Assembly (NCBI RefSeq): GCF_011397635.1
Contig: NC_064759.1
Coordinates: 12,544,428 to 12,608,427, forward strand
Length of the DNA stretch: 64,000 nucleotides
Direction: 5' to 3'
From: Epinephelus fuscoguttatus
Taxonomy: Eukaryota > Chordata > Actinopteri > Perciformes > Serranidae
Shown here: positions 9,221-64,000 of the stretch, piece after piece
Numbering within the stretch: the first letter of the stretch is position 1
How the letters are laid out: each line of letters begins with the position of its first letter
Made by a program: the position numbers and the translations under genes
Notes under the pieces: model-generated
Seen by the model: only the letters and a program-made list of their open reading frames with translations
The model's database searches: none
Told to the model about the DNA's origin: nothing

Positions 9221-12200
9221 ATGCCTCTTCTGGAAGAGACCACTCTGCGACAAGAGCACCCACCCACTGTCCCCGTGGTCATCATTGGTAAACACTTTGC
9301 TCTTAACCTCCTGACCTTTAATGATTTTATATTGGCCCTAATCCTACATTTTAACAGAGGTGTGGATTCGACTCACATGACTTGGACTCAAGTCACAAAT
9401 TCGATGACTTTAGACTCAACTTGGCAAAATAAACAAAGACTTGTAACTGAACTTGAACTTTAACACCAATGGTTCATGACTTTATTTGAACTGAGACTTT
9501 TGACCTCAAAAAAACAACTCGATACCTCCCCCAAAGCCCAAAGATTAAAAAGTATACAGGAAGTTCAAGGAGAGAACCATAAAGAACCATGAAAAAATTA
9601 TACCAATTTCGTTTGTGTACAAAAACTACACTTTGATAAATAAGAAACAAATTATAATATGCAAAACTAACAAAACAAACTTATTTCCAAACTGTAAAAA
9701 GCATTCACGATTTTGTAACTTTAATGTTATTAATCCGATGTCAAAATGCCATTACAGTTGGTGAAGAGTGCATTATGACTTGTTAAGGACTCGAAACTCA
9801 AAGTCTAAACGCGAAACCAACATCAAAGAACTTGTGAAGACGAAGGGCGACTCTTGCGTCACCTGTGTCTCAGCCAAAAAGTTGCACCTGAACACACCGC
9901 GGTGAACAATAACACAAACAATTATCAACCCATTTTGCAAAAGAGCTCAATGGCTAGTAAAACAGTCTGACCTCATCTGTTTGTCCTGATCTCATGCTCT
10001 CTTTACTTTAGCTGTCTATTTGTTTTCCTAGCGGGCCTATTGAATGTGCAGAGTCAGCCAGAAAAGGATACAAGGGCCAACTGGTGCCGGTGGTGCAGGA
10101 AACACAGCAAAATCTAAGGAAACAGCTCACCGACAGCCTGACACTGACTGACATCTGATCATTGACTTGGTGTGTCAGGGCCCTAAGACTTGGAACTTGA
10201 GCACCAGAACTGAACTTACTCATGACTCACAAAACAATGACTTGGTCCAACCTCTGCATTTTTATCTTTAAAGCAACATGTAATGCTGTGTGCTCCTTTG
10301 TGATGCTGAGCCAACTGTTTCCCAAACCTGGGTCTGTTTTTAGGCAATGGCCCATCAGGTATCTGTCTGTCCTACCTGCTGAGTGGATACAAGCCCTACC
10401 TTGATACAACAACTGTCCACCCAAACCCCATACTGTACAGGAAACTGCAGGAGACCAAGCACCTATCCATCACTGAACAGGTAGGTACACATATGAATTC
10501 CTTGCACATGTAGACACGATCACAGCTGCACATCTGTGTCATGACATGGACTGTTTTGCAGGATCTGGAATATCTGAGTGAAGGTCTCGAGGGGAGATCG
10601 AGGAACCCTGTGGCTGTGCTTTTTGACACACTTCTACACCCCAATGCTGACTTTGGCTACGAGTTCCCTCCTGTCCTTCAGTGGAGGAGGGACAAGCAGC
10701 AGCACATCCCACATCTGGTGCTCGGGAGGGCAACACCTGGAGGTGCTTGGCATGTAAGATACAAGGTTTAGTCTTCCATGTGTTTGTAATGATCCATATA
10801 TTCGCGTCAGATACCATGCAGCATGAAACGCACTGGGCAAGAGCATATTTTGACGCTCTGAGCAAGTACTGTAGTAAAAAAACCGAGAGAGTCCACACAG
10901 GGTGGGTTGGAGGATGGGTCAAACAAACTCAAGCTTTTCACCTGAGAGACCACTGTTTTTGTCCTATGTGAAACCAAAAGTCAATCCAGTCCTTTTAAAA
11001 ACAACTTAATGCACTCCTCAGTTGCTCTTTCTGAGGTTTCTCAAATTTTCTTTCCGATTAAAGGGTTTTTATTCTTTATCCACTGTGAGGGTACAAGTAC
11101 GGAGAGTATCGTATCTTGTAAAGCCCTCTGAGGCAAATTGGGATTTGTGAGGCTGGGCTATACAAATAAAACTTAACTGAATTTAAGTGCTGGTATGTAC
11201 AGAAAACTACTCCAGCTGTGCTGCATGACATTACATCACAAAACATTCTCACTCCGACCTCGTCACATACTGATGTTTGGTCATGGACTTTCCACGTCCA
11301 CATTCAACGTGCAAGGTACCCTGGGTGCATTGGTTATTGATGTTCTGGGACACCGTGTCAAGTTCTGCCTGTTACATGCATTGTCTTCTTTCAAGATACA
11401 CTTCGTTTTCACAGGAAATTTAACATGCAGTCTGACTTTTCTGTGAAAATGTAAGTTTATTTTGAAAAGACAAAATGCATTTAATGAACATACATTGATA
11501 CTCTGTCCCTGAACGTCCAAAACTGATGCTTGAGGGGTATCTAAAGAGTCATAGTTTGGCATGCAGGACCACTGATGAAGCATTGGTATTTGACAAGTTG
11601 GGATCGAGGATGTGTTGTATTGTCAGTCGTTTTGTTTTAACCGTCTCAGACGTTGCTTTTTCCTCTACGCTTCTTCTCTCCTCAGGCAATGGAAGGCTCC
11701 ATGCTGACTATTAGTCTTGGTATCTGGATGGAGCTTCCCGGTGTTAACTATAGAGACTTGACAAACGGGAAACGCAGGTACTGAGAGAGGACAACGTAAA
11801 CATCAAAGACATGGCTCAAGCCTCAGTTTAATTCTGTGCTACCTCTTTTCTCATTGTCTCTTCTCTCTCTAGGGATGTAACCAGTGACAGAGCCACCCCA
11901 GAGGAGATATCATCCTATTATCGTAACTATGTGAAGCTAAAGGGCCTCCAAAAGAATTTTGTTGACAACACCTACGTGACCTCTGTCCAGAAACTCAGCC
12001 GGGGGCACGAGGGGGAAGGTCTGGAGAATGGGCACACTGATCAAGGAGATGGAGGGGTGGTAGATGGTGGGAATGAAGGCTTTGAGGTAAATGGAGTTGA
12101 GTGTCTCAACAAGGGAGGAGGGGGGGCTCTCTGGGAGGTAAGGGGATACCAGCAGGTGCAGAACGACACTCATGTTCCCTTCTCTCTGTTTGCTGAGAAT

Positions 12201-13055
12201 GTAGTTCTGGCCACTGGTGCGTCTGATTCACCAGTTCGATTAGGCGCAGAGGGGGAGGACCTACCGTTTGTATCCCACAGCATCTCAGATTTGGGTTTGG
12301 CTGTAAGCCTGAGAAAACTGGATATGAACTCTGATCCGATTTTAATTGTAGGTGCGGGTTTAAGTGCTGCAGACGCAGTTCTGTGCGCTTGTAACAGCAA
12401 CATAAGAGTGCTTCATGTCTTTCGTAAGAGCGTAGACGACCCAGACCTCATCTTCAAACAGCTGCCCAAGACCCTGTACCCAGAGTACCACAAAGTCTAT
12501 AACATGATGTGCTCTCAGACCTACACAAACGTGGCTCCCTCCTCTGCTTCAAACAGACCCCAGGCTGTAAGCATTGCCTCTTCAGTATGTGCCAAGATGT
12601 GCCCAAAGCCCCAACTTGCCACAGGTAACATGGCTGGTAATGCCAGTGTCAGCCTGTTTCCTGACTACACCAGTTTCCCTGAACACTGCGTGGTGTCCTT
12701 CCAGTCTGACATGAAGTGTTTGCTGCAGGGGAACAACTCCCTCAAGGCATTCAAGATCTCCATGGCACTAGTGCTGATCGGGACCAACCCTAACTTGTTT
12801 TTCTTGAAGGGTCAGGGCCAGTACCTGGGTCAGGATCCGACAAAACCCATCTCTTGCACGCAGAACCCCATTGACATCCACCCCTACACTTTTGAGTGCA
12901 CCAAGGAGCCAGGTCTGTTTGCCATGGGCCCGCTAGTGGGAGACAACTTTGTTCGCTTTTTGAAGGGTGGTGCTTTAGGCATTGCCTCCTGTCTGCTGAA
13001 GAAACTCAAGAAGAAAGAGAAACTCATCAGCAATGGAGGGAACAACTTCATTTGA
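9221..13055 (+). CDS. osgin2: Oxidative stress-induced growth inhibitor 2 (OSGIN2)
   Basis: Coding exons: 9221-9287, 10344-10480, 10562-10753, 11686-11777 and 11873-13055. All junctions are GT-AG and the sum is 1671 nt, giving 556 residues. The protein is a predicted FAD/NAD-binding oxidoreductase-like member of the OSGIN family, which is linked to stress responses and growth control. It opens MPLLEETTL, as vertebrate OSGIN2 does, then has a GNGPSG dinucleotide-binding loop (residues 23-28, split by intron 1), DLEYLSEGLEGRS at the start of exon 3, the LATG flavoprotein motif (about 275-277) and a second Rossmann loop, GAGLSA (323-328). It ends with a GPLVGDNFVRFLKGGALG block. OSGIN2 rather than OSGIN1 is chosen from the N-terminus and the VKLKGLQKNF segment. 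A Gly/Asp/Glu-rich insert (about 206-248) and a Ser/Ala-rich insert before DYTSFPEH make it longer than my recollection of the human protein. An upstream GTG in the same exon is not used as a start. It converges on nbn. Confidence 0.95.
9795..10188. mobile_element. MITE in osgin2 intron (CCAACATCAAAGAA family)
   Basis: The segment contains CCAACATCAAAGAACTTGTG and CAGCCAAAAAGTTGCACCTG, closely matching the start of the element at 42523-43433. It closes with CTTGGTGTGTCAGGGCCCT, whose complement resembles that element's other terminus. The left end is eroded. Confidence 0.6.
11236..11622. mobile_element. Short foldback element in osgin2 intron
   Basis: Begins ACAAAACATTCTCACTCCGA and ends GGGATCGAGGATGTGTTGTA, an imperfect inverted terminal pair. 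The interior (GGTACCCTGGGTGCATTGGT, TCAAGTTCTGCCTGTTACAT) matches the arms of the larger foldback at 3378-5006. The length is about 390 bp and it is non-coding. Confidence 0.7.
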
Positions 13056-21900: not shown

Positions 21901-24900
21901 AAAATAAAAAGACACATTTCCTCCTTTGCCTCTCTCCATTGGAGTTACGTATCTCTCTGTCACTCCCTCCCTGTCTGTCATTTGGCACCACAGCTGCATG
22001 ATGGGGCGGAGCTGTCTGTCCTCTCTGTCCTCCACAGTCTGTGTGCGGTCCACTTGTTTTGACTGTGTCCTGGTGACACTTTTTCTTCACTGATTATTTG
22101 TCTAACGTCGCTAAAGGCTCTTACGGATGCGAAATACTCAAAAAGATCGAACCTGTTCTGAAAATTTTAATGATGGACAAAAGTTTCAGACTTCAAGCAC
22201 GATTGACACAACGTGACGTCGTATTTATTTTTAGATGTGCGACAAAGTCGGACGAAAAAATAAATAAATAAATAAATAAAAAACTGACTCAGTGTGCAAA
22301 GGCCTTAAAACTGTTTTTTGGACAAATCATCTTTTTCTTGTACATGTTCTGCAGGTAAGTATAAAGGTGATTAGTATCTGTGTTCCCGTGCAGCGGTAGG
22401 TTTTACGTAGAAATATGGTCAAAAATATGGTATGGAGTTACGCTGATCTACATTTTGCCAACAAGTGCAAGTATAAATTAAAATACAGTATTATGTTCAA
22501 TGGTAGGTTGATAGATCTGTCACAACAGAAATGTGGACTCATTTTGACAAAAATAAATTACAAGTTGGGTAAATGAAATAAGATAAAATGTCTGTGGCAA
22601 TTAAGACCTTACCAATTTTAAGGTGACTTTAAAGGCTTAATATTTATAAAATTGAATTTAAGAGTTCAGGGGCCTGCAAAAAATATTCTTTTAAGTGCTG
22701 CCTCTAAATTTCAAATGAGACTCTGCTGTATATTTCTGTTGTGTAAGTTGCTTTGTACTCTGACCTTGCGGAAACATTTGAAGTTCTTTGCACAGCCGTT
22801 GCTCTGCGTCGTTTGTGGTTTGGTTTTGGGAGGTGCAGACACAGTCAGAGATCTAAACTCCACTAGCACCACCTTTTTAGGAAGGTCTTCATCAATCTTC
22901 GACTCCTACAAAACAGCACATAGATTAATGTTTTAGGATATAAAACAAATCACAACTGCAGTGAATTAAAGGTCCAGTGTGTTTCATGTAGTGGCATCCA
23001 GTGGTGAGGCTGACTGCAACCAACTGAAACTTTTCCTATGTGCCAACTATGTGGAAGAACAACAGGGGCCGACACGAAAGCGTGAATGGCCCTATCTAGA
23101 GCCTATGCTTGGTTTGTCTGTTCTGGCCTACTGTAGAACGTGGTGGCCTCCATGGAAGAGGATCCGCTCCGTATGTAGATAAAAATGGTTCATAGTAAGG
23201 TAATGAAAAACAACAATTCCTTTATTTCAGGTGAATATACAATAAAGAAAACACAGAGCATTATATTCCACCTCTGACAAAAGATGCCCTTAAATCTTAC
23301 ACACTAGACCTTTAATGCAGTTCAGACAGTGTCTTCTGACTGGTTCTCAACAGAGCTGCAACTATTAGTTGATCGACAGATAAATAATTCCCAACCAATA
23401 TGACAATCGATAAATCCTTTAAGTAATTCCTCATGTCATGTCAATGGTAGAAAATGTTCTTTTCAGCCTCTAAAATATGGAGATTTTCTACTTGTTTCCT
23501 TTTTATATCACAATAAACTGAATATCTTTGAGTTTAGTCTGACTAAACTAGTCATTTAAAGACATCATGTTGGACTTTGAGAGACTGAGGTGGACATTTT
23601 TCACCATTTTCTTACATTTAATAGACCAAACAATTAATCAGCTGGTCGAGAAAAATAATCAGCAGATTAATTACTAATGAAAACAATCATGGGGCGGCAC
23701 GGTGGTCTGATGGTTAGCACTGTTGCCTCACAGCAAGAGGGTTGCCAGTTCGATCCCGGGCGTGGGAGCCCTTCTGTGTGGAGTTTGCATGTTCTCCCCG
23801 TGTCAGCGTGGGTTCTCTCCGGGCACTCCGGCTTCCTCCCACAGTCCAAAGACATGCAGATTGGGGACTAGGTTAACTGATAACTCTAAATTGTCCGTAG
23901 GTGTGAATGTGAGCGTGTTTGTCTCTATGTGTCAACCCTGCGATAGTCTAGCAACCTGTCCAGGGTGTACCCTGCCTCTCGCCCAATGTCAGCTGGGATA
24001 GGCTCCAGGCCCCCCGCGACCCTCAAGAGGATGAAGCGGTTAGAAGATGAATAAATAAATGAATGAATGAAAACAATCATTAATTGCTTGTAGATGACAC
24101 TTCATATGAGAGATTTAAAGTTTCAAAACAGTACAATAAATACATCAGCTAGCCACTCTTACAACCACTGGATGCCAGTAAGCTTTGAAATTTGAGTTGA
24201 GACTGAGTAAACTTGAATCAAAAATGTTTTGATTGTTGGCTTGAAGCCACTGAAAATAGTTAGTATTCTGATGACTTGGATTCATCCAGTGCTGTCTGTC
24301 CCGACCTTAAGAGTAATCAAAAACCCTGATTTTGACAATAAATAAAGGCAGAAAAAGAAGTAAAATAGTTAGCTGGATATTGTAGCTTATTTAAAGTGAG
24401 GAAGAGAGAAAACTGTGACAGTAAGAGCTTTACACAGAACTTACTTGGACCTCCTGTTTGACTGTAACTGGTTTCAGAGGGGTCTTAGTCTCTTCTTTAG
24501 GCTTGGTAATATCTCCTTCAAGTAGCGCTAAATCCTGCAGAATTAAACATGTGCAGAAACAGTGAAACATGATTGAAAATATAACTGAGACTTGTAAGTT
24601 TTCTTTTCTCTTAATAATTGTAAGCACAAAAGAAGGCAGACAGTACCTCAATGAAAGACGCCTCGTCATCGTCAAAAGGCTGGAGGTTTTTACTTGTACT
24701 GGCGGATGACACTTCCTGAGGTTTGCTGAACTCCTGATTAGTTTTCCTGTGCTCTAAAGGATCAACCTGCTCTTTCTTGATGGAGACAATATGTGGTGGA
24801 GATTTTTGGTGCTTATGGGAATCTGACTCTTTTTCCAGGCCCACCTGCGACCTCTGGTTCTTTCCTGTTTCCTCTACGAGGACCCGCTGCCTCTTGCTCG

Positions 24901-51589: not shown

Positions 51590-52640
51590 CTTAATTCTTC
51601 ATGGCATAGACGCAACAAGGTGCTGGAAACATTCCCCAGAGATTTTGGTCCATATTGACATGATAGCATCACACAGTTGCTGCAGAGTTGTCGGCTGCAC
51701 ATCCATGATGTGAATCTCCCGTTCCACCACATCCCAAAGGTGCTCTGTTGGATTGAGATCTGGTGACTATGGAGGCCATTGAGCTTTGTGACATGGCACG
51801 TTATCCTGCTGGAAGTAGCCATCAGAAGATGGGTACACTGTGGTCATAAAGGGATGGACACGGTCAGCAACAATACTCAGGTAGGCTGTGGTGTTTAAAC
51901 CATGCTCAGTTGGTACTAAGAAAATATCCCCCACACCATTACACCACCAGCAGCAGCCTGAACTGTTGATACAAGGCAGGATGGATCCATGCTTTCATGT
52001 TTACACCAAATTCTGACCCTATCATCTGAATGTGGCAGCAGAAATCCAGACTCATCAGACCAGGCAACGTTTTTCCAATCTTCTATTGTCCAGTTTTGGT
52101 GAGCCTGAGTGAACTGTAGCCTCAGTTTCCTGTTGTTAGCTGACAGGAGTGGCACCTGGTGTGGTCTTCTGCTGCTGTAGCCCATCTGCTTCAAGGTTGG
52201 ACGAGGTGTTGTTGGTTCAGAGATGCTCTTCTACAGACCTTGGCTGTAACCAGTGGTTATTTGAGTTCCTGTTGCCTTTCTATCATCTTGAACCAGTCTG
52301 GCCATTCTCCTCTGACCTCTGGCATCAACAAGGCATTTTCACCCAGAGAACTGCCGCTCACTGGATATTGTCTCTTTATCGGACCATCCTCTGTAAACCC
52401 TAGAGATGGTTGTGTGTGAAAATCCCAGTAAATACTCAGACCAGCCCATCTGGCACCAACAACCATGACACGTTCAAAGTCACTTAAATCACCTCTCTTC
52501 CCCTTTCTGATGCTCAGTTTGAGCTTCAGCAGGTCGTCTTGACCATGTCTACATGCCTAAATGCATTAAGTTGCTGCCAAGTGATTGGCTGATTAGCTAT
52601 TATAATGATCAGTTGAACAGGTGTACCTTATAAGTGGCTG
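51590..52640 (-). pseudogene. Degenerate Tc1/mariner transposase
   Basis: Read on the minus strand, pieces of a Tc1-like transposase follow in order: an N-terminal part (LGENALLMPEVRGEW, 52257-52430), the central QMGYSSRRPHQVPLLSANNR block (52130-52194), then HQNWTIEDWKNVAWSDES with the first catalytic Asp (near 52060), STVQAAAGGVMVWGIFS (51916-51970) and a shifted C-terminal part with CDAIM- and PRRI-like remnants (51600-51780). Stops and frameshifts separate the blocks, so it is dead. The outer sequence CAGGTGTACCTTATAAGTGG (52618-52637) resembles the usual terminus of this family. Confidence 0.85.
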
Positions 52641-53399: not shown

Positions 53400-54472
53400 T
53401 CTCAGTTAAACTCAAAGTGTGTACATTATTGACAAGTTATTGTATACAAACACCTTTTTTATTTTTATAATTTAAGTTAAACTCAAAGTGTGTACATTAT
53501 TGACAAGTTATTGTATACAAACAACACTTTTAGTTATTTATTTATTTAGGTTAAACCCAAAGTGTTTACATCATTGACAAGTTACTGTGTAAAAGCGACC
53601 CACTTTTTATTGTTTTTTTTTTTATTTAAGTTCAACTCAAAGTGTGTACATTATTGACAAGTTACTGTACACAAACAACCCACTTTATTATTTAAAAAAT
53701 ATATATTTAAAAATATATATTAATTTAATTTAAAGTGTGAACATTAGACATGTTACTGTGTACTAACAACCCACTTTTTTATTTTTATTTTTCAAAATTT
53801 AAATTAAACTCAGTGTGTGCAATATCGACAAGTTGTTGTATCCAAACAGCCAACTTTAATTTTTTTTAATTTAAGTTAAACTCAAATTATGTGCATTATT
53901 TTCAAGTTACTGTATACAAACAATCCACTTTCTTAATTTTTAAATTTAAGTTAAAGTGTGTACATTATTGACATGTTACTGTATACAAACAACCCAGTTT
54001 TTCATTCATTCATCTTCTAACCGCTTCATCCTCTTGAGGGTCGCGGGGGGGCTGGAGCCTATCCCAGCTACATCGGGCGAGAGGCAGGGTACACCCTGGA
54101 CAGGTCGCCAGACTATCGCAGGGCTGACACATAGAGACAAACAACCATTCACGCTCACATTCACACCTATGGACAATTTAGAGTTATCAATTAACCTAGT
54201 CCCCAGTCTGCATGTCTTTGGACTGTGGGAGGAAGCCGGAGTGCCCGGAGAGAACCCACGCTGACACGGGGAGAACATGCAAACTCCGCACAGAAGGGCT
54301 CCCACACCCGGGATTGAACCGGCAACCCTCTTGCTGTGAGGCGACAGTGCTAACCACCACACCACCGTGCCGCCCCAGTTTTTCATTACTTAATTTAAAT
54401 TAAACTCAAAGTGTGTACATTATTGACAAATTATTGTACACATACCCTCTTATTTTTTTATTTTAATTTTTT
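53400..54472. repeat. 75-bp satellite array interrupted by a SINE
   Basis: Nine diverged tandem units of about 70-90 bp, each with AAGTTAAACTCAAAGTGTGT, then ACATTATTGACAAGTTAC, TGTATACAAACAACCCACTT and a variable A/T spacer. Unit starts fall near 53403, 53475, 53550, 53628, 53720, 53801, 53873, 53948 and 54395. Unit 8 is split by the SINE at 54007-54374. Confidence 0.85.
54007..54374 (-). mobile_element. SINE-like retroposon (GGGCGGCACGGTGG family), copy 2
   Basis: Reversed relative to copy 1 at 23691. Read on the minus strand it starts GGCGGCACGGTGGTGTGGTG, has TGGTTAGCACTG and GGTTCAATCCCG boxes, and ends AAGCGGTTAGAAGATGAATG. A 13-bp perfect target duplication, CCAGTTTTTCATT, flanks it (53994-54006 and 54375-54387), formed from satellite sequence. 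Confidence 0.85.
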
Positions 54473-55061: not shown

Positions 55062-57567
55062 TTATCGCTTCTTAGGAGCCTCTGCCTTTGCTTCTTCGTT
55101 TTTAGGGGCCTCTGCCTTTGCTTCTTCTTTTTTAGGGGCCTCTGCCTTTGCTTCCTCTTGTTTCGGGGCCTCTGCCTTTGCTTCTTCTTGTTTCGGGGCC
55201 TCTGCCTTTGCTTCCTCTTGTTTCGGGGCCTCTGCCTTTGCTTCTTCTTGTTTCGGGGCCTCAGCCTTTGCTTCCTCTTGTTTTGGGGCCTCTGCCTTCG
55301 CTTCTTCTTGTTTCGGGGCCTCTGCTTTAGGCTCCTCTGGTTTAGGGGCCTCTGCCTTTGGGTCCTCTTGTTTAGGGGCTTCTGCTTTAGGCTCCTCTTG
55401 TTTCGGGGCCTCTGCCTTTGGCTCCTCTTGTTTAGAGGCCTCTGCAGCTACTTCCTTGCTACACAGCTTGCTTCATGACAAAGTTCAACAATAGACAATG
55501 TGGTGAATGCATACAGTAGTTATGATTATGGATGTTTGAGTGCAGAAATTATTTTATATTTCTATGTACATATATATCTTTATAAGTATTTCCCATACCT
55601 TACTTCTTCAGGTGCTCCAGCTTTCAAGAAGCCACACACTCCACTCGGTGCTGCTAGCTGCTGTTTCAGTGTTTCCACTTCTGCTGTCCAGCCGGTCTTC
55701 TCCTTGTCATTGTCAGCTGTAGGTATTATTATATGGGAATTATAAAATTAAAGCAAGGTTAAGATCAATATTTGGTGCAATCAATATTTTTTGATTGGAA
55801 AAGAAGCAAACTTTAATACATTTGTATCAGCACAATAAAAGCAGGAAGAGCTGCCTTGTGTCTTCTCTCATTATTTTACACACTTAAACTATTGAGGATC
55901 ATAAATCGACACCTACCTTGGAGATGACTGAGATCGGCCTCGAGTGCTGCCAGCTCATCTCTGGCAGATTTCTACAACAGGAAAAACAAATGTCAGCGAC
56001 ACAAACCTGAGTTTGCTGGAGAAAATAATCTGCTCTGCACAGACTAACATCCTGCATCTATACTGCACATCTTTAGCTTTGATGCAGCCACTTCCTTGGG
56101 ACTCCCACTGTAAATATTTGAATAAGTCTGTCATGATATTTCCTGGAACTGCACACATCACAGTTTTGGCATTGTGCTACCTGGTCAAGTTTAGTGATAT
56201 ACTTCATATCTTCCTCTTATTTGGCATGATGTGCCCTAAAAGATTATTTTTCTATCACTGCACTTTGAAGCCACAAGATCAGTGGTCCAAAAGTGGGTCA
56301 TGGGCCCATTCTGAATGAACCACAAATGACCAGCAAACATGTCAAGTTAGTAAAAAAAAACGCACTTTATTTTTAAGTACAGTGAATTCCAGCACAGAGC
56401 TTTTATTTTGAAGTGCCATTTTCTGCCGCAGAGAGAGTGACTAACCGGCAGCTACTTGACAGAGACAGCAAACAACAACATGGCTAAACCCAAGTGTGAC
56501 GTTGTATGTATTAAAGTGTGGGACCTTGAACTAATGACTAAGAAGCAATCTGGACACTGTGGCTGGACCAGTGAGGAGCCACTGCACCAGATCAGCTTTG
56601 CAGAGTTGGTTTATTATGTAAAATGAATGTATTGCAAACCACAGAGCTACTTTCCCTTCCTCCAGAGCTATCATCTAGCTACTTCACCATGACAGAGAGC
56701 ATTACTTTAGACATTTTCAGGCATGTATTGCCTTTATAAGCAGTTTGGTGTTTAGAAATATGAGCAAAAATGACATACTTCAGCACAGGAGCACTTGGAG
56801 GCAGAGACAGATCATGTTTCTCACCGACTATATAGATGTTTTTTGCCAAAATAATAAAACAAAATGTTTTAAAGCGATGTCCACTCATGTATGTGGTATT
56901 ATGGCAAAATAATTGACAGTCTTGAAATAATAAAATAAAGGAAACTGGCCTGTGATCCTGTAAAGTCTAAGGCCTCCCATGTATCCAAGCAGGGACAGTG
57001 GATTATTTTACACTCCTGCCTGTAGGCCTGTTGACAGTCCCTGCTCTGATAGTGAGAAGCCTGATTATCTGGCTGGTGGTGATTTTATGCATTCATATCG
57101 GAACCAGGTGAAACAGGTTGTGTGTGTTTTTGTGCATACACTTGACGTGATGTGAGCCACCCATCCCCCTTTAATCTGTGCTGTCATTTCCCCTTTAAAA
57201 CTGGCTCTCAATCCAACATAACTTTCACATTTACTCATGCTCTCCCTGCTTGCATCTGTCAGTGTCTGCCCACCTGATCACCCGTGCAGACGTCCACGTC
57301 GCCCTTCGCCTTGTCTGCTCGGGTCTGGAGCTTGATCACTTCCTCCGCCAGCGCCTTCTCCTCACTCCGTGTCTTCTCCAGAAGGTTCTGCTGCTGCGCC
57401 TTCTCGCCCTCGTACTCCTGCAGCACATCATAGGTCACCCGCAGCTTGATATCCTGAAACCTTTTCCGTCTGTCCTCTTTGTCCTGCTCCTTTTGCCGTA
57501 ATTTCATGACCCCCATCAGAGCCACAGACGTCATGATCACCACAGGTAGCACCAGCTGCACCTTCAT
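55062..57567 (-). CDS. Membrane-anchored coiled-coil protein with decapeptide-repeat tail
   Basis: Exons 57274-57567, 55917-55971, 55599-55716 and 55062-55458 join in frame (864 nt, 287 residues). Residues 4-21 are a hydrophobic signal-anchor (VQLVLPVVIMTSVALMGV), followed at once by a Lys/Arg/Glu-rich segment predicted to form a long coiled coil (about 25-150). A cysteine in VDVCTGD and the block GVCGFLKAGAPE are visible. The tail (about 160-284) is 12 units of the type AEAPKQEEAK ending in KKR. I expect a single-pass protein with a disordered, strongly charged tail. The family is not named here; it is a paralogue of the gene starting at 61289. Exon 3/4 junction: AAG-GTATGG with TAG-CAAGGAAG is chosen because it makes exon 3 118 bp, as in the paralogue; the acceptor has a weak pyrimidine tract. 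Confidence 0.8.
55081..55440 (-). repeat. Coding minisatellite, 12 x 30 bp
   Basis: Twelve 30-bp units in perfect register with no indels. The six central units (55141-55320) alternate CTTCCTCTTG and CTTCTTCTTG variants, making three 60-bp dimers, so recent growth was by dimer. The protein-N-terminal four units read EEPK or EDPK; the remaining eight read EEAK. Confidence 0.97.
56280..56584 (-). mobile_element. hAT-type MITE, copy 3 of 3 (inverted)
   Basis: CAGTGGTCCAAAAGTGGGTC at the left and CCAGTGAGGAGCCACTG at the right, with the interior AACAACATGGCTAAACCCAA matching the complement of the other two copies. Flanking 8-mers CACAAGAT (56272-56279) and CACCAGAT (56585-56592) differ at one base. 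It lies in the first intron of the coiled-coil gene. Confidence 0.8.
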
Positions 57568-58008
57568 GCTTTAACCCGGAGCGGAGAGCCTTCTTTGCGC
57601 GCGGTGTACGTCCTTAGTGATGGAGGTGTGGGGCGAGTGCTCTGCCTGAACACAAGGTTGCTTTTACTGTCGCCCTGGTTACAAGTCTTTACGGATCACG
57701 AAATAAAAACCAATCAACCTAAAGGGCTGGCTCACCTGTGCTGTGACCGGGCATTCATTAATGTGCGTCGGATCTGAGCTGCGCAGCATTCCCCCAGAGT
57801 GTCATCACAAACACGCCCTCTTCCTGTATGGTAGCCTATCTGACAGGTAGGCCCTGCTCTCACCTGTACTGTCCTGCGCACCTTGATCTGACTTCATTAC
57901 ACCATTAACAAGTCCAATGTGGCTGCAGATAAGCTGTGTGTCTGTTGACAGAGAGGACAAACTGGAGCTGAAAGGAAATGCATTTACCCAGTGTAATCAC
58001 TTATTTTA
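57568..58008. promoter_or_regulatory. Upstream region of the minus-strand coiled-coil gene
   Basis: The roughly 40 bases before the ATG are GC-rich (GGAGCGGAGAGCC, then TTTGCGCGCGGTG), suggesting a CpG-type promoter. No TATA box is evident close by. Beyond 57800 no feature was recognised. Confidence 0.35.
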
Positions 58009-58890
58009 ACACTGAATACAACTCCATATAACTTCAATGTATTTACTCTGACTCATAAGGATGTGTTGTTAAATATAAAGCAATCTGATATTGATATTTA
58101 ACTTTATTGGCAGACAGTTTGGAGGAGGTATTCAGATTTTCTTTTTAAGTAAAAGAAGCTGTAGCCTGACCATGGATGAATTACTGAATGGGCCCAAAGA
58201 TTCAGGGGGCCTTCACCTGCAAATTGTCACTTAAATTAACACATACCAACCAGGAAGAGATTCAAAATGACCACAGAGATACAAATAGACTGCAAAGAGA
58301 CACAAAATAACTTCAAAGAAGTGAAAATGACTACAAAGAGACACAAAATTACTATACAGCAACACAAAGCAACCAAAAAGACATGCTGAAATTTGAACAC
58401 TGAATACAACATTATATAACGCCACTATATTTACTCTGACTCATACAAGGATATGTGGTTGAATATAAAGCAGTCTGATATTAATGTTTAACTTCACTGG
58501 CAGACAGTAAAAGTTTTACAGTAAAAGTAGCACGGTCTAATCATGGAAAGATTACTGAATGGGCCAACTGGACACAAGTCCAAGGCCAAAAGTTTCAGGG
58601 GCCTCCCTCACCCTGAGCCCGCAAAATGTCACTCAAATTATCATGTGTCAACTAGCAAGACTTGACGTGACGGCAAAGAGACACAAAAAGTCAACAAAGA
58701 GATGCAAAGAGACATAAAATAACCACAAGAGAGCAAAAAAAACAAAACAAAAAAAGACACAAAATCAGCTCAAAGAGACTCATAATGACTACAAAGAACA
58801 CAAAACAAACACAAGAAGACACAAAATGGCCACAAACAGACAAACAACAACAACAACAACAACCAAAGCGGCAAAACCACTACAAAGTCT
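58009..58890. repeat. Composite repeat, two head-plus-array units
   Basis: Two tandem units of about 387 bp start at 58009 and 58396 (AACACTGAATACAACTCCAT and AACACTGAATACAACATTAT). Each has ACTCTGACTCATA, GATATT(G/A)AT and GATTACTGAATGGGCC-type blocks, then a run of short CACAAAATGAC/CACAAAGAGA motifs. The second array extends to about 58880 and ends in an AACAAC run. Confidence 0.8.
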
Positions 58891-59149
58891 AAAACTCAAC
58901 ATGTAAATTAAGCTGTCAAATAAATGAAGTAGAGTAACAAGAGAGGCAGCAGAAAATTAACATATGGAAGTGGGGGTTTGGGGTCCTTTTTTGGGCATCA
59001 AACATTTGATGTCCTGCATTTTGATGAATGTCTCTGCATTGGTTTGTGGTGTAAATGTCTTTATGGTCCTGAAAATAGAAGTCTTCTGCTACTTTCATGC
59101 TTTTATTGGGGGTAGTGGCAAGTTCCAGGGCTGAAAACCGAGAACAACT

Positions 59150-59440
59150 TGGAGGTGCCAAAAACTACAGTTCCCCAAATGGGCACTTGAGGCCGACCCC
59201 CAACTTTACAGCTGAAATAAACATGTTTACATCCCGGCATGAAAAACAGTTTTGGTCTCTATAGCTAACTTCAACATTCATGACAACTGTGTGGGGACGA
59301 ATTTTGATATAACTCACATATTTGCATTTGATCAGGCCTTGAGTTTACCTGCCTGCGTGGCAGATCCACCCTTCACTCCTCCACAGCTCCACCCTCTTAT
59401 CCAAACTTGGTTACTACTGGCTCCAAAAAACTAAGATGGG
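59150..59440. repeat. Dispersed repeat (CAGTTCCCCAAATGGGCACT type)
   Basis: AACTACAGTTCCCCAAATGG then GCACTTGAGGC, followed by ACATGTTTACATCCCGGCAT and CTACTGGCTCCAAAA, looks like a fish interspersed repeat. No inverted ends were resolved. Confidence 0.4.
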
Positions 59441-60034
59441 TACTTGAAGTTCACAAACCAATGGATGATGCCACTGTGGCTACATCCATTATTTTATATG
59501 GTCTATGAGGAGGACATGTACCCTGCATCCCCCCAACATCTACGCATATGTAGATAAAATATAAGTATCTCCATGTTGAAGTTAATTGTAAATTTCCATC
59601 ACAGTTTAGAGAAACAGTAACAGGTCAGAAATGATAACACATAAAAGAGCACATAAAATAGTTTAAGCCTTTTTATGTCATTCAAGAACAAAGATTTTAA
59701 GTTTGAGTTTAAGTGTCTTGTTTGTGTTGTTTTAAGTCATCCCCTGCATTACAATCTGATGTTTTGTCTGTGCCTCAGCAGCAGGTTTCCACCCATATTG
59801 TTTTACGATAGAAGTCTGATACAGACTCTTTTGTACTGAAGCTGCTGTTCGACAATATTTTGCACAATGTTCAGTATCTTAAAATACGACCATAGAAATT
59901 GCTTAATGTTATTTCAGGGAGTTGTTTTCTGGTCAGAGTGGAAAAGCGTCTAAGGCAGTATTTTACATGCTCACTGTTTAAATTGCTCCTGAAACCTCTC
60001 AGTCTTCACATGTGCATCATAATTAGGTGTGCAA

Positions 60035-60115
60035 AGTCATCCAGAGGGCTGGGTTGGACCCCTTGGTGGGCCGGTCCTGGCCCCATGGGCTATATGTTTG
60101 ACACCCCTGCTCTAG
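60035..60115. repeat. Dispersed repeat end (GGGTTGGACCCCTTGGTGGG)
   Basis: GGGTTGGACCCCTTGGTGGG then CCGGTCCTGGCC and TTTGACACCCCTGC matches a widespread hAT-like fish repeat terminus. Confidence 0.55.
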
Positions 60116-60169
60116 AGTATCTTAACCTGCTATCTCAATAGCTTCCACTTTAGTGGATTTAGTGGAAGG

Positions 60170-60725
60170 TACAGAATGACTACACAGTGGCACAAAGTGA
60201 TGAAAAAATCCACAAAATTACCTTAAAGAGACTTAAAATGCCCTAAAAGACACACAAACTGACCTCAAAGTAATGCAAACTATTACAAAATGACACAAAA
60301 CAACCACAAGGAGACACAAAATGACTATAAAAAGACACAAAACAACCACGAGGAGACACAAAAATGACACAAACCAACCATAAGGAGACACAAGGAGACA
60401 CAAAATGACTTCAAAAAGACAAAAAAAAAACAACCATAAGTAGACACAAAACAACCACGAGGAGACACAAAATGACACAAACCAACCATGAAGGGACACA
60501 AAAAGACACAAAGCAACCACGAGGAGACACAAAATGACACAAAACAACCATGAGGAGACATAAAATAACACAAAGCAACCACAAGGAGACACAAAATGAC
60601 TACAAAGTGACCAAAAGAGACACCAAATTACCTCAAGGGACTTAAAATTACCTCAGAGACACAAAATGAAGTCAAAGAGATGCAAAAACACAAAACAACC
60701 ACAAGGAGACACAAAATGACCTCAG
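60170..60725. repeat. Degenerate minisatellite, CACAAAATGAC motif
   Basis: Short imperfect units (GAGACACAAAATGACTACAA, AACAACCACAAGGAGACACA) repeated for about 550 bp. Same motif as at 58255-58880 and 62525-64000. It makes long open frames on the minus strand (Cys/Val/Leu/Trp-rich) that are by-products of the repeat. Confidence 0.85.
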
Positions 60726-60938
60726 CTCCAGATTGTAATGCAGGGGATGAGTTACCTGCTTCCCCATTAGCTTCCACTTCAGTCACATGTAATGAAAGTT
60801 GAGTAGTAGACTGACTCAATGTGGAAGAACAAAGACACAGTGTTGAATTTGCGCATGAGTTTTCTTACTTCTTTGTTTGTTAAATGGATGAACGTTTTCA
60901 GAATGAAAGAAACATTTGAAGGGGTTGATATTTATAGG

Positions 60939-61020
60939 TTATTATGCAGTGGTTTTACTGGTCCAGCCCAGTTGAGATCAAATTGGGTTGTATAATGTGT
61001 GGCCCCTGAACAACAGAGTT
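60939..61020. repeat. Dispersed repeat end, second copy
   Basis: GCAGTGGTTTTACTGGTCCA then GCCCAGTTGAGATCAAATTG matches 43738-43830. Confidence 0.5.
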
Positions 61021-61288
61021 TGTTGATCATGATGCAAATCCATCCAAGCTGCTTTTTTCTGTGTGCAAGCGCGTGCCTACCAGTGAGGAGGGCGAAAGTC
61101 ACACGAGGAAATAGGTGGATTGTCACGCCCAGCCCGCTGAGCAGGTAGAGCAGGTTACACGTACAGTAAACACGGTCACACTGCGGGACGGTGCCGGAGG
61201 AGTCGACGCGTGCACGGCTGGAGACGTACCTGGAATGAGCAATAAGTGACCCTCATTGATCCAGACTTTATTTATACTCTCTGCCAGG

Positions 61289-62363
61289 ATGAAGCTCGCG
61301 GTGGCGCTGACCGGCCTGAGCGTGATCGTAATGGTTGTAATGATTTTCCAAACCGTAACTCAGGAGCTGAATCTGCGCACACTGAAATCCCGCATGTTGG
61401 CGAACTCGGCGGAGGTGAAGAGGAGAGAGGACTCCATCGTGGACATGAAGAAGAAAATCCAGGAGATGAAGACGACGCTGGTGACTGTCAACACCAACAT
61501 AGACGAGCTGAAGAAGAAGAAGGCGGACAGTGAGAAGTCAGCGCAGGAGTTAGACACAAATCTGCAGACCTGTCACAAGGAGAAGGTGAGGGACACACAC
61601 ATTTAACACACAACAGGTACTGTTTAATATGTATACAGTCATAACACTACTGACAGGTAAGTATCACTCCTCAGGAAGCACATGATATCTTATATTGACT
61701 CAGTTTTCTACATCCAAATATTTGTTTTATGATTTTATTGAAGCTTCTTTTTGACTGCATTAATCCACCATGATAACTGCTGACAGATATTTACACCTGT
61801 GCCCTTATTAGGAAGATGCAGAGACTAAGAAGACAGAAAAGGTAGAGGCCATGGCTAAACTCAAAGGTAAGGCTTTTTATGTCGCGTGCTTTGGGCTGAT
61901 AGGTAAAACACCACATTTGCAACCCCAAACTGACCCAGATAAGAGTTGTGACAGACCACAATGCCTTAATCAGGTTTCTGTTGGCCTTTTAAAAGACAGA
62001 GGATGGATTGGAGCGGCTGAGATCTGTCAGTCTGTCATCGTCTGTTCAAACTCTGCCTATTAGAAACCAGCGGAACAAGATGTGACAGCACTAGACAACG
62101 TGGCTTCAGGCACAGTGTCCCTTGGTTTCATTTGCCGATCTGAGCTCAGCAAAAGTAGCAGCTCCCGTTCCATTTATTGTGTGTGTGGTAAATATGGAAA
62201 TTCACAACATGCGTTCCTCTGTGTTATACTCTGTCGTTTCTACAGCTGATCACGAGGAGGCCAAAAAGAAGGCCGAGGTGGACATTCAGAACTTGAAACA
62301 ACAGATTTTGGATAGAGACAAAGCTATTTGTGCCTTTGCAGACACAACCAAGGAGGAAGCAAG
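61289..62363 (+). CDS. Membrane-anchored coiled-coil protein, paralogue (3' end outside window)
   Basis: Exons 61289-61585, 61812-61866 and 62246-62363 (297, 55 and 118 bp) keep one frame, giving 156 complete codons plus two bases of the next; the last exon must lie beyond 64000. An N-terminal signal-anchor (residues 3-20, [18 protein letters not shown]) is followed by a Lys/Glu-rich coiled coil (about 25-150) with heptad-like spacing ([19 protein letters not shown]). Cysteines sit in LQTCHKEK and KAICAFADT, at positions comparable to those of the minus-strand copy. Exon lengths and phases equal those of 55062-57567, the basis for calling them paralogues although the proteins have diverged strongly. 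The start is the first ATG after a TTTATTTATAC block; an upstream in-frame non-ATG start is not supported. The function is not known to me. Confidence 0.75.
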
Positions 62364-62419: not shown

Positions 62420-64000
62420 AGAGGATTACTGAACGGGCTTACTGTGTACAGGCCCAGGGGCCCAAAGAGTCAGGAGTCCCCCTGGCCTTCACGTGCAAAT
62501 TGTCAATCAAATAAACACATACAGACCAGGAAGAGATTCAAAACGACCACAAAGAGACACAAATAGACCACAAACAGATACAAAGGAACTTCAAAAAACA
62601 GAAAACAAAAACAGCAAAAACAACCAGAAAGAGACACAAGACAGGAAAAAAAAGGAAATAAAACAGCCACAAGGAAACACGAAATGACTACAAAGCAATA
62701 CAAAATGACCTGAAAGAGACACAAGATTACGAGACGAGACTTAAATTTTTCCTCAGACACACAAAATGACCACAAAGAGACACAAACTGACGTCAAAGAG
62801 ATGTAAACAACTACAAAAAGATACAAAGCAACAACAAAGAGAAAGAAAATGACTATAAACCAACACAAAGCAACCAAAAGATACACAAACTGACCACAGA
62901 GAGACACGAACTGACCTCAAAGACAGAGACGCAAACAACTATAAAAAGACACAAAACAACCACAGGGAGACACAAAATGTCCACAAAGAGGCACAAACCT
63001 ACCTCAGAGATGCAAACTACTACAAAAAGGCTCAAAACAATCACAAAGAGACACAAAATAACTACAAAAACAGGAAAACAACCAGAAAGGGGGATAAAAC
63101 AACCACAAAGCTACACAAAATGACCTCAGAGGTAAAAATGTCTACAAAGAGACACAAAACAAACACAAGGAGACACAAAATGACCTACAAAGCAACACAA
63201 GGGTACCAAAAAAGACACACAATTACCTTAAAGAGACTTAAAATGTCCTCAAGACACACAAAATGACTGCAAAGAGACACAAAATGACCCCACAAAGAAG
63301 CAAAAGAACAACCACAAGGAGACACAAAATGACTACACAGTGACACAAAGTGACCAAAAAAGAGACACAACGAGGCAAAAACGACTATAAAGAGACACAA
63401 AACAACCACCAGGATGATCACAAAGCGACCAGTATGACACAAAATTGCCTTGAAGAGAATTAACATTTCCTCTAAAAGACAGAAACTGACCTCAGAGAGA
63501 CACAAACTGAGCTCAAAGACACACAAACTGACCTTAAAGAGACACAAACAGGCAGAAATGACCACATAGAGTCACAAAACAAGGAGACACAAGGAGATAC
63601 AAATTTACCATAAAAGACACAAAATTACCTTAAAGAGACTTAAAATTTCCTGAGACACACAAATTACCTCAGAGAGACACTAAAAGACGCAAAACAACCA
63701 CGAAGAGACACAAAATAACTACAAAAACAGAAACAGGAAAAACACCAGCACAGAAACACAGAACAACCACGAGGAGACACAAAATGACATCAAAGAGACA
63801 CAAACTGACCTTAAAGAGGTAAAAATGACTACAAAATGACTACAAAAAGACACAAAACAACCACGAGGAGACACAAAATGACATCAGAGAGACACAAACT
63901 GACCTTAAAGAGGTAAAAACGACTACAAAACAACTACAAAAAGACACAAAACAACCACGAAGAGACACAAAAGAACTACAAAAACAGGAAAAACAACTGG
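62420..64000. repeat. Composite repeat, third head and long CACAAAATGAC array
   Basis: A head (GAGGATTACTGAACGGGCTT, then CAGGCCCAGGGGCCCAAAGA and CTTCACGTGCAAATTGTCAA) matches the heads at 58170-58250 and 58550-58650. From about 62525 an array of CACAAAATGACCACAAAGAG-type units runs to the end of the window, nearly 1.5 kb. It sits in the third intron of the plus-strand coiled-coil gene. Confidence 0.85.

Follow-up and report, generated by a model that had tools for sequence, protein, structure and literature searches.

Tetherin (BST2), PLVAP and TMCC(aT)/CCDC194 are the closest described systems to the genes reported here. PMC10617486 describes TMCC(aT), tetherin and PLVAP as genes that lie beside one another and resemble each other in structure, suggesting a common ancestor; the tetherin gene adjoins PLVAP, and TMCC(aT) takes its name from its location beside tetherin. 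Recognisable sequence can be lost fast in short membrane-anchored coiled-coil proteins, making their history and their relatives hard to trace; tetherin, whose orthologues have low primary sequence homology, is a well-known case of such loss according to the same paper, and conserved asparagine motifs are reported for it in PMC9599465. Here we describe a pair of genes coding for putative proteins of this general kind in the fish Epinephelus fuscoguttatus, located on contig C8 (C8:12544428-12608427; this whole stretch of 64 kb is called the window throughout). No description of this gene pair was found in the open-licence PMC literature.

The window contains two divergent, head-to-head four-exon genes, designated here the minus gene and the plus gene after their coding strands, with 3,722 bp from start codon to start codon and deduced products of 291 and 167 residues, respectively (Table 1). 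Both genes have GT-AG splice sites, introns in phases 0, 1 and 2, and inner exons of identical length (55 and 118 bp), and their first exons comprise 98 codons in the minus gene and 99 in the plus gene. The exons listed are coding exons, and both genes might possess additional, non-coding exons upstream. An earlier examination of these letters without database searches (the sequence-only reading) had proposed a divergent pair with starts 3.7 kb apart, sharing the lengths and phases of the inner exons and having little sequence identity, and all of this is borne out by the exons, splice sites and frames read from the DNA and by an identity of 30 out of 160 aligned columns over exons 1-3. It had also suggested looking beyond position 64000 for the fourth exon of the plus gene, which was indeed located there, beginning 689 bases past the end of the window. 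To that description we add this exon, three cysteines common to both products and a KLC motif in exon 4 of both genes.

Judged from gene structure and alignment, the two genes are old inverted tandem paralogues derived from one four-exon gene. A global alignment of the proteins without the repeats scored 68, a value reached by none of 3000 free shuffles and by 16 of 3000 shuffles confined to the transmembrane and coil segments. For the C-terminal half alone the score was 65, compared with a shuffle mean of 6.3 (standard deviation 8.9), and was equalled by 0 of 10,000 free shuffles and by 11 of 10,000 shuffles that preserved residue class. Additionally, each protein contains exactly three cysteines, at residues 94/144/159 (minus) and 95/146/160 (plus), and when three cysteines were placed at random, they lay no more than 2 residues from those of the plus protein in 36 of 200,000 draws. 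The fifth codon from the end of exon 1 specifies the first cysteine in both genes, and the KLC motif contains the third. The shuffle scores, the cysteine positions and the equal exon lengths and phases therefore indicate a common origin. Intron positions and cysteines appear to preserve a relationship that the sequence alone reveals weakly, the nucleotide identity of the inner exons being 25/55 for exon 2 and 51/118 for exon 3. The junction between exons 3 and 4 of the minus gene admits alternative in-frame choices, such as a nearer donor (giving 113 bp) and other acceptors; the junction EEV-S-KLCSKEV was picked because the plus gene has the homologous EEA-R-KLCGIAEAPQ at this place.

In both genes, exon 1 encodes the dipeptide MK, a hydrophobic helix covering approximately residues 3-21 and a charged coil. 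The maximum of Kyte-Doolittle hydropathy over 19 residues was found at residue 3 in both products, with values of 2.19 (minus) and 2.43 (plus), and there was no second hydrophobic segment, the maximum past residue 40 being 0.65 (minus) and 0.17 (plus) over the same length. With the best heptad register, 54% (minus) and 67% (plus) of the a/d positions were hydrophobic, compared with 34% overall; choosing the best of seven registers inflates this score, such that shuffles average 44%, and the observed score was equalled 180 times in 10,000 shuffles for the minus coil and 0 times in 10,000 for the plus coil. Exon 1 of the plus gene alone, modelled by AlphaFold2 with no alignment, gave one helix spanning residues 2-98 with a mean predicted local distance difference test (pLDDT) score of 95. 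The N-terminal hydrophobic segment followed by a charged coil, proposed previously for both proteins, is thus upheld by hydropathy and heptads.

The minus gene continues into a tail of 12 decapeptides encoded in frame by 30-bp copies, the early units resembling KQEEPKAEAP and the later ones KQEEAKAEAP; units 7 and 9 have the same DNA sequence. Codon differences summed over all pairs of units, which are not independent, comprised 164 synonymous and 73 non-synonymous changes (69% synonymous), compared with 20% synonymous among random single-base changes in the units, and this is consistent with a translated tail. The plus protein ends in AEAPQ, and the tail probably grew by expansion of a 30-bp unit beside a short AEAP-like end of the ancestral protein, of the kind that the plus copy retains. 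Paralogy, head-to-head layout, N-terminal hydrophobic segment, coiled coil and a repeat tail on one of the genes are, accordingly, the parts of the sequence-only reading that stand, on the evidence of gene structure, shuffles, heptads and the predicted helix.

Table 1. Coding exons of the two divergent genes and the tandem array of the minus gene (coordinates in window numbering).
Feature	Position	Strand	Details
Minus gene exon 1	57274..57567	-	294 bp, 98 codons; phase-0 donor CAG/GTGGGC
Minus gene exon 2	55917..55971	-	55 bp, phase 0 to 1; acceptor TTGTAG, donor AAG/GTAGGT
Minus gene exon 3	55599..55716	-	118 bp, phase 1 to 2; carries LKQQ and the second Cys
Minus gene exon 4	55062..55470	-	409 bp including stop; KLC motif with the third Cys, then 12 decapeptides
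30-bp tandem array	55072..55445	-	Tandem Repeats Finder (TRF): period 30, 12.5 copies, 89% matches; KQEE(A/P)KAEAP-like repeats
Plus gene exon 1	61289..61585	+	297 bp, 99 codons; phase-0 donor
Plus gene exon 2	61812..61866	+	55 bp, phase 0 to 1; acceptor ATTAG, donor AAG/GTAAGG
Plus gene exon 3	62246..62363	+	118 bp, phase 1 to 2; carries LKQQ and the second Cys
Plus gene exon 4	64689-64722	+	34 bp including stop; ends RKLCGIAEAPQ

The reading that we prefer, to which we give an even chance of being right as a whole, is that these are old inverted tandem duplicates whose products pair in parallel through their coiled coils, as a dimer anchored in a membrane and joined by disulphides. Of this, the sequence itself shows the structure of the genes, their paralogy, the hydrophobic segment, the heptads, the three cysteines and the repeat tail. 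A single four-exon gene would have undergone an inverted tandem duplication, giving rise to the two divergent genes, each of them coding for a protein with a two-residue N-terminus, a hydrophobic helix, a charged coil of ca. 130 residues and three cysteines situated in or just after the coil. The hydrophobic segment would act as a membrane anchor and the coil would pair in parallel with a second chain, either of its own kind or of its partner's; the cysteines may then lock the dimer, which would stand as a rod or spacer on the membrane. The sequence-only reading had likewise raised a heterodimer, or else a lineage-specific system, as possibilities. In the minus copy, a long, disordered and charged tail would be situated at the far end of the rod.

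Several results weigh against this reading. The gene models were read from genomic DNA alone; the alignment score of 68 was reached by 105 of 3000 shuffles in which residue class was kept by position; exon 1 is too diverged for secure alignment, and MAFFT fails to superpose the hydrophobic helices; and a TBLASTN search with exon 3 of the plus gene as query matched exon 3 of the minus gene only at E 0.49. Likewise, no relative beyond the pair was found in the searches described below. The main doubt on the proposed workings of the pair is, nevertheless, the orientation of the proteins in the membrane. By the positive-inside rule, the more positive flank of a membrane helix lies on the cytosolic side, and the flank that follows the helix is as positive as the two-residue N-terminus in the plus protein and more positive in the minus protein; the charge difference across the helix, toward the coil side, is 0 and +2, respectively, and the 15 residues after the minus helix have a net charge of +4. 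The charges of the minus protein lean to a cytosolic coil, where disulphides would be unexpected, and N-glycosylation sequons (NXS/T) are absent from both proteins.

The pair might, instead, code for internal-membrane proteins whose coil faces the cytosol (reverse signal anchor), working as a scaffold or tether like kinectin and p180, a tentative alternative that we regard as having some weight, even if it is a minority one. Kinectin and p180 are scaffold or tether proteins of internal membranes, and p180 has a decapeptide array, of which the charged decapeptide tail of the minus protein is reminiscent. The two-residue N-terminus, the missing sequons and the positive charges after the helix, strongest in the minus protein, would fit such a topology; however, the charge difference of the plus protein is zero, and three cysteines kept while nearly all else changed suggest disulphides and an oxidising compartment. 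A cytosolic coil would therefore be favoured by the minus charges together with the lack of sequons, whereas a luminal or outer coil would be favoured by the conserved cysteines. It could also be that the hydrophobic segment serves as a signal peptide and is cleaved off, both products then being secreted coiled-coil proteins. The stretch begins at residue 3, as signal peptides do, but it is long (ca. 19 residues) and no clear small-residue cleavage motif is seen after it by eye, and we consider this unlikely.

Searches for relatives of the pair gave little. At E up to 10 no Pfam family was matched by the minus protein, and matches in the PDB were weak for both proteins, with best E values of 0.89 (minus) and 0.075 (plus). 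When exons 1-3 of the plus gene, without exon 4, were scanned, the Pfam matches listed (the best 25 families) were all below their cut-offs; the best of them, a plant filament-like coiled-coil family (E 0.0022), was rejected as a match of composition. Within the genome of E. fuscoguttatus (1.05 Gb in 26 contigs), a search at E up to 0.001 with the protein encoded by exons 1-3 of the plus gene recovered solely exons 1 and 3 of that gene. No further copy of either gene turned up at E up to 1 in the flanks of the window, searched over 10 kb on the upstream side and 46 kb on the downstream side. Viral contigs, queried with the first exon of both genes, and prokaryote contigs, queried with that of the plus gene only, contained no relative, which is to be expected of a fish gene. 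Human BST2, PLVAP and CALB1 gave low-scoring BLASTP matches only against the pair (best E 0.051), and TBLASTN with these three had no hit at E up to 1 in the 120 kb of the locus formed by the window and its 10-kb upstream and 46-kb downstream flanks. The pair consists of real, ancient paralogues that are uncharacterised rather than strange, and its interest is modest unless orthologues or topology turn out to be unusual; following orthologues across fish would make it possible to test how proteins of this kind originate, pair and acquire tails.

The G+C content of the space between the two start codons is 0.38 over positions 58000-60900, and this region contains several short tandem repeats. 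A spacing of 3.7 kb, with low G+C and repeats, is unlike one compact bidirectional promoter, and co-regulation of the two genes is therefore not implied by their layout. Degenerate tandem arrays with units of ca. 10-31 bp (GACACAAAATGACCACAAA-like) occur between the genes, as several separate arrays within 58255-60628, and also in intron 3 of the plus gene (62523-64000), with similar sequence running on to ca. 64450. On the minus strand, a Tc1/Tc3-like transposase fragment is situated at 51919-52230 (HTH_Tnp_Tc3_2, E 1.7e-08), and similar fragments of open reading frames occur at 54009-54389 (minus strand), at 23711-23998 (plus strand) and, past the window, at ca. 94532-94909, probably representing a dispersed mobile element.

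Upstream of the pair there is an OSGIN-like exon on the plus strand (11832-13052), named by eye, with a match to the Pfam pyridine-nucleotide oxidoreductase family at E 4.2e-07 and 29.9 bits, against a cut-off of 30. It is followed by nibrin (NBN)-like exons on the minus strand, at ca. 24.6-31.8 kb. One of the nibrin-like pieces gave a BRCT match over the cut-off and another matched the second nibrin BRCT under the cut-off (E 0.0038), and a long nibrin-like piece of 250 residues, named by eye, had no Pfam match. A nuclear receptor gene is located downstream, at ca. 101.4-104.6 kb (zf-C4, E 7.3e-17; ROR by eye). PMC11074466 places ripk2 adjoining osgin2 in tetrapods and elsewhere in fish.

Comparison with PLVAP could be made within the same genome, where the PV-1 profile (PF06637) identified two PLVAP-like genes over its cut-off, on contigs C15 and C10, whereas the pair is on C8. 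PV-1 was not matched by the minus protein at E up to 10 and was not among the matches listed for the plus protein. Like the pair, PLVAP has one membrane helix, at the N-terminal end, and after it a coiled coil that bears cysteines; unlike the pair, the PLVAP-like genes found here encode tens of residues before the membrane helix and a longer coil, and the coil encoded on C15 carries NXS/T sequons as judged by eye. In exon models read by eye, and in part, from genomic DNA, the last three acceptors of the gene on C10 were at codon boundaries, unlike the 0/1/2 phases of the pair, the gene on C15 had one coil exon of ca. 700 bp, and no pair of 55/118 bp exons was seen in either of the two. The coil encoded on C15 ends in LKQ...C and is followed by a low-complexity, repetitive C-terminal exon. 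This last exon (C15:27498881-27499768, minus strand) encodes a long repeat tail that is rich in Ser and Gly and has SSSSSGSTYNKPSTGAG-like units, a further case of a membrane coiled-coil protein ending in repeats.

These likenesses would be accounted for if the pair were a branch of the tetherin/TMCC(aT)/PLVAP cluster that was translocated and has a role at the cell surface, for instance as a diaphragm-like or virus-tethering rod. The broad architecture is the same, the coil on C15 ends much as described above before a repetitive-tail exon, and the mismatch in sequence with tetherin is not decisive because of the low primary homology among tetherin orthologues noted in PMC10617486. However, the lack of PV-1 among the Pfam matches listed, the different contigs, the acceptors of the gene on C10 and, in the pair itself, the lack of a hydrophobic C-terminus or sequon and an N-terminus of two residues argue against such a descent, which seems improbable to us. 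Additionally, the 1 kb preceding each start codon contains no exact interferon-stimulated response element (ISRE; GAAANNGAAA), although this is weak evidence because the distance is counted from start codons rather than from transcription starts; a single GAS-like (gamma-activated sequence) element, TTCNNNGAA, lies at 58312, which is 745 bp ahead of the minus start codon, and may be fortuitous.

A scan for open reading frames coding for a hydrophobic helix followed by a charged coil covered 220 kb, comprising the 120 kb of the locus, 40 kb for each PLVAP-like gene and 20 kb at a weak match on contig C17. It returned five rows: two were the paired genes themselves, one was a PLVAP exon 1, and the remaining two look like chance hits; that neither tetherin nor TMCC(aT) appeared beside PLVAP is weak evidence, because the scan also missed exon 1 of the PLVAP-like gene on C10.

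Tetherin resembles the pair in being a short, membrane-anchored coiled coil with cysteines in the coil, but the products of the pair have hydrophilic C-termini without the hydrophobic signal for a glycosylphosphatidylinositol (GPI) anchor, no sequon and no cytoplasmic tail, and their genes are not beside PLVAP. The BST2 profile (PF16716) was not among the Pfam matches listed for the pair, a result without a positive control in this genome. TMCC(aT)/CCDC194 combines, like the pair, a membrane helix and a coiled coil with the lack of a GPI anchor, as described in PMC10617486; compared by description only, its architecture fits the pair and its location, judged by the positions of the PLVAP-like genes, does not. 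A fourth, hitherto unrecognised branch of this kind of proteins, relocated in fish to the nbn region and divided into two divergent partners that form a disulphide-linked heterodimer of one long-tailed and one tail-less chain, can also be envisaged, and we hold it to be very unlikely. Membership of the pair in PLVAP, tetherin or TMCC(aT)/CCDC194 is not supported, and the likeness would be one of outline at most: under the preferred reading of old paralogues forming an anchored dimer, the two proteins would operate like PLVAP or TMCC(aT), as a membrane-anchored coiled-coil rod, without being assigned to those families.

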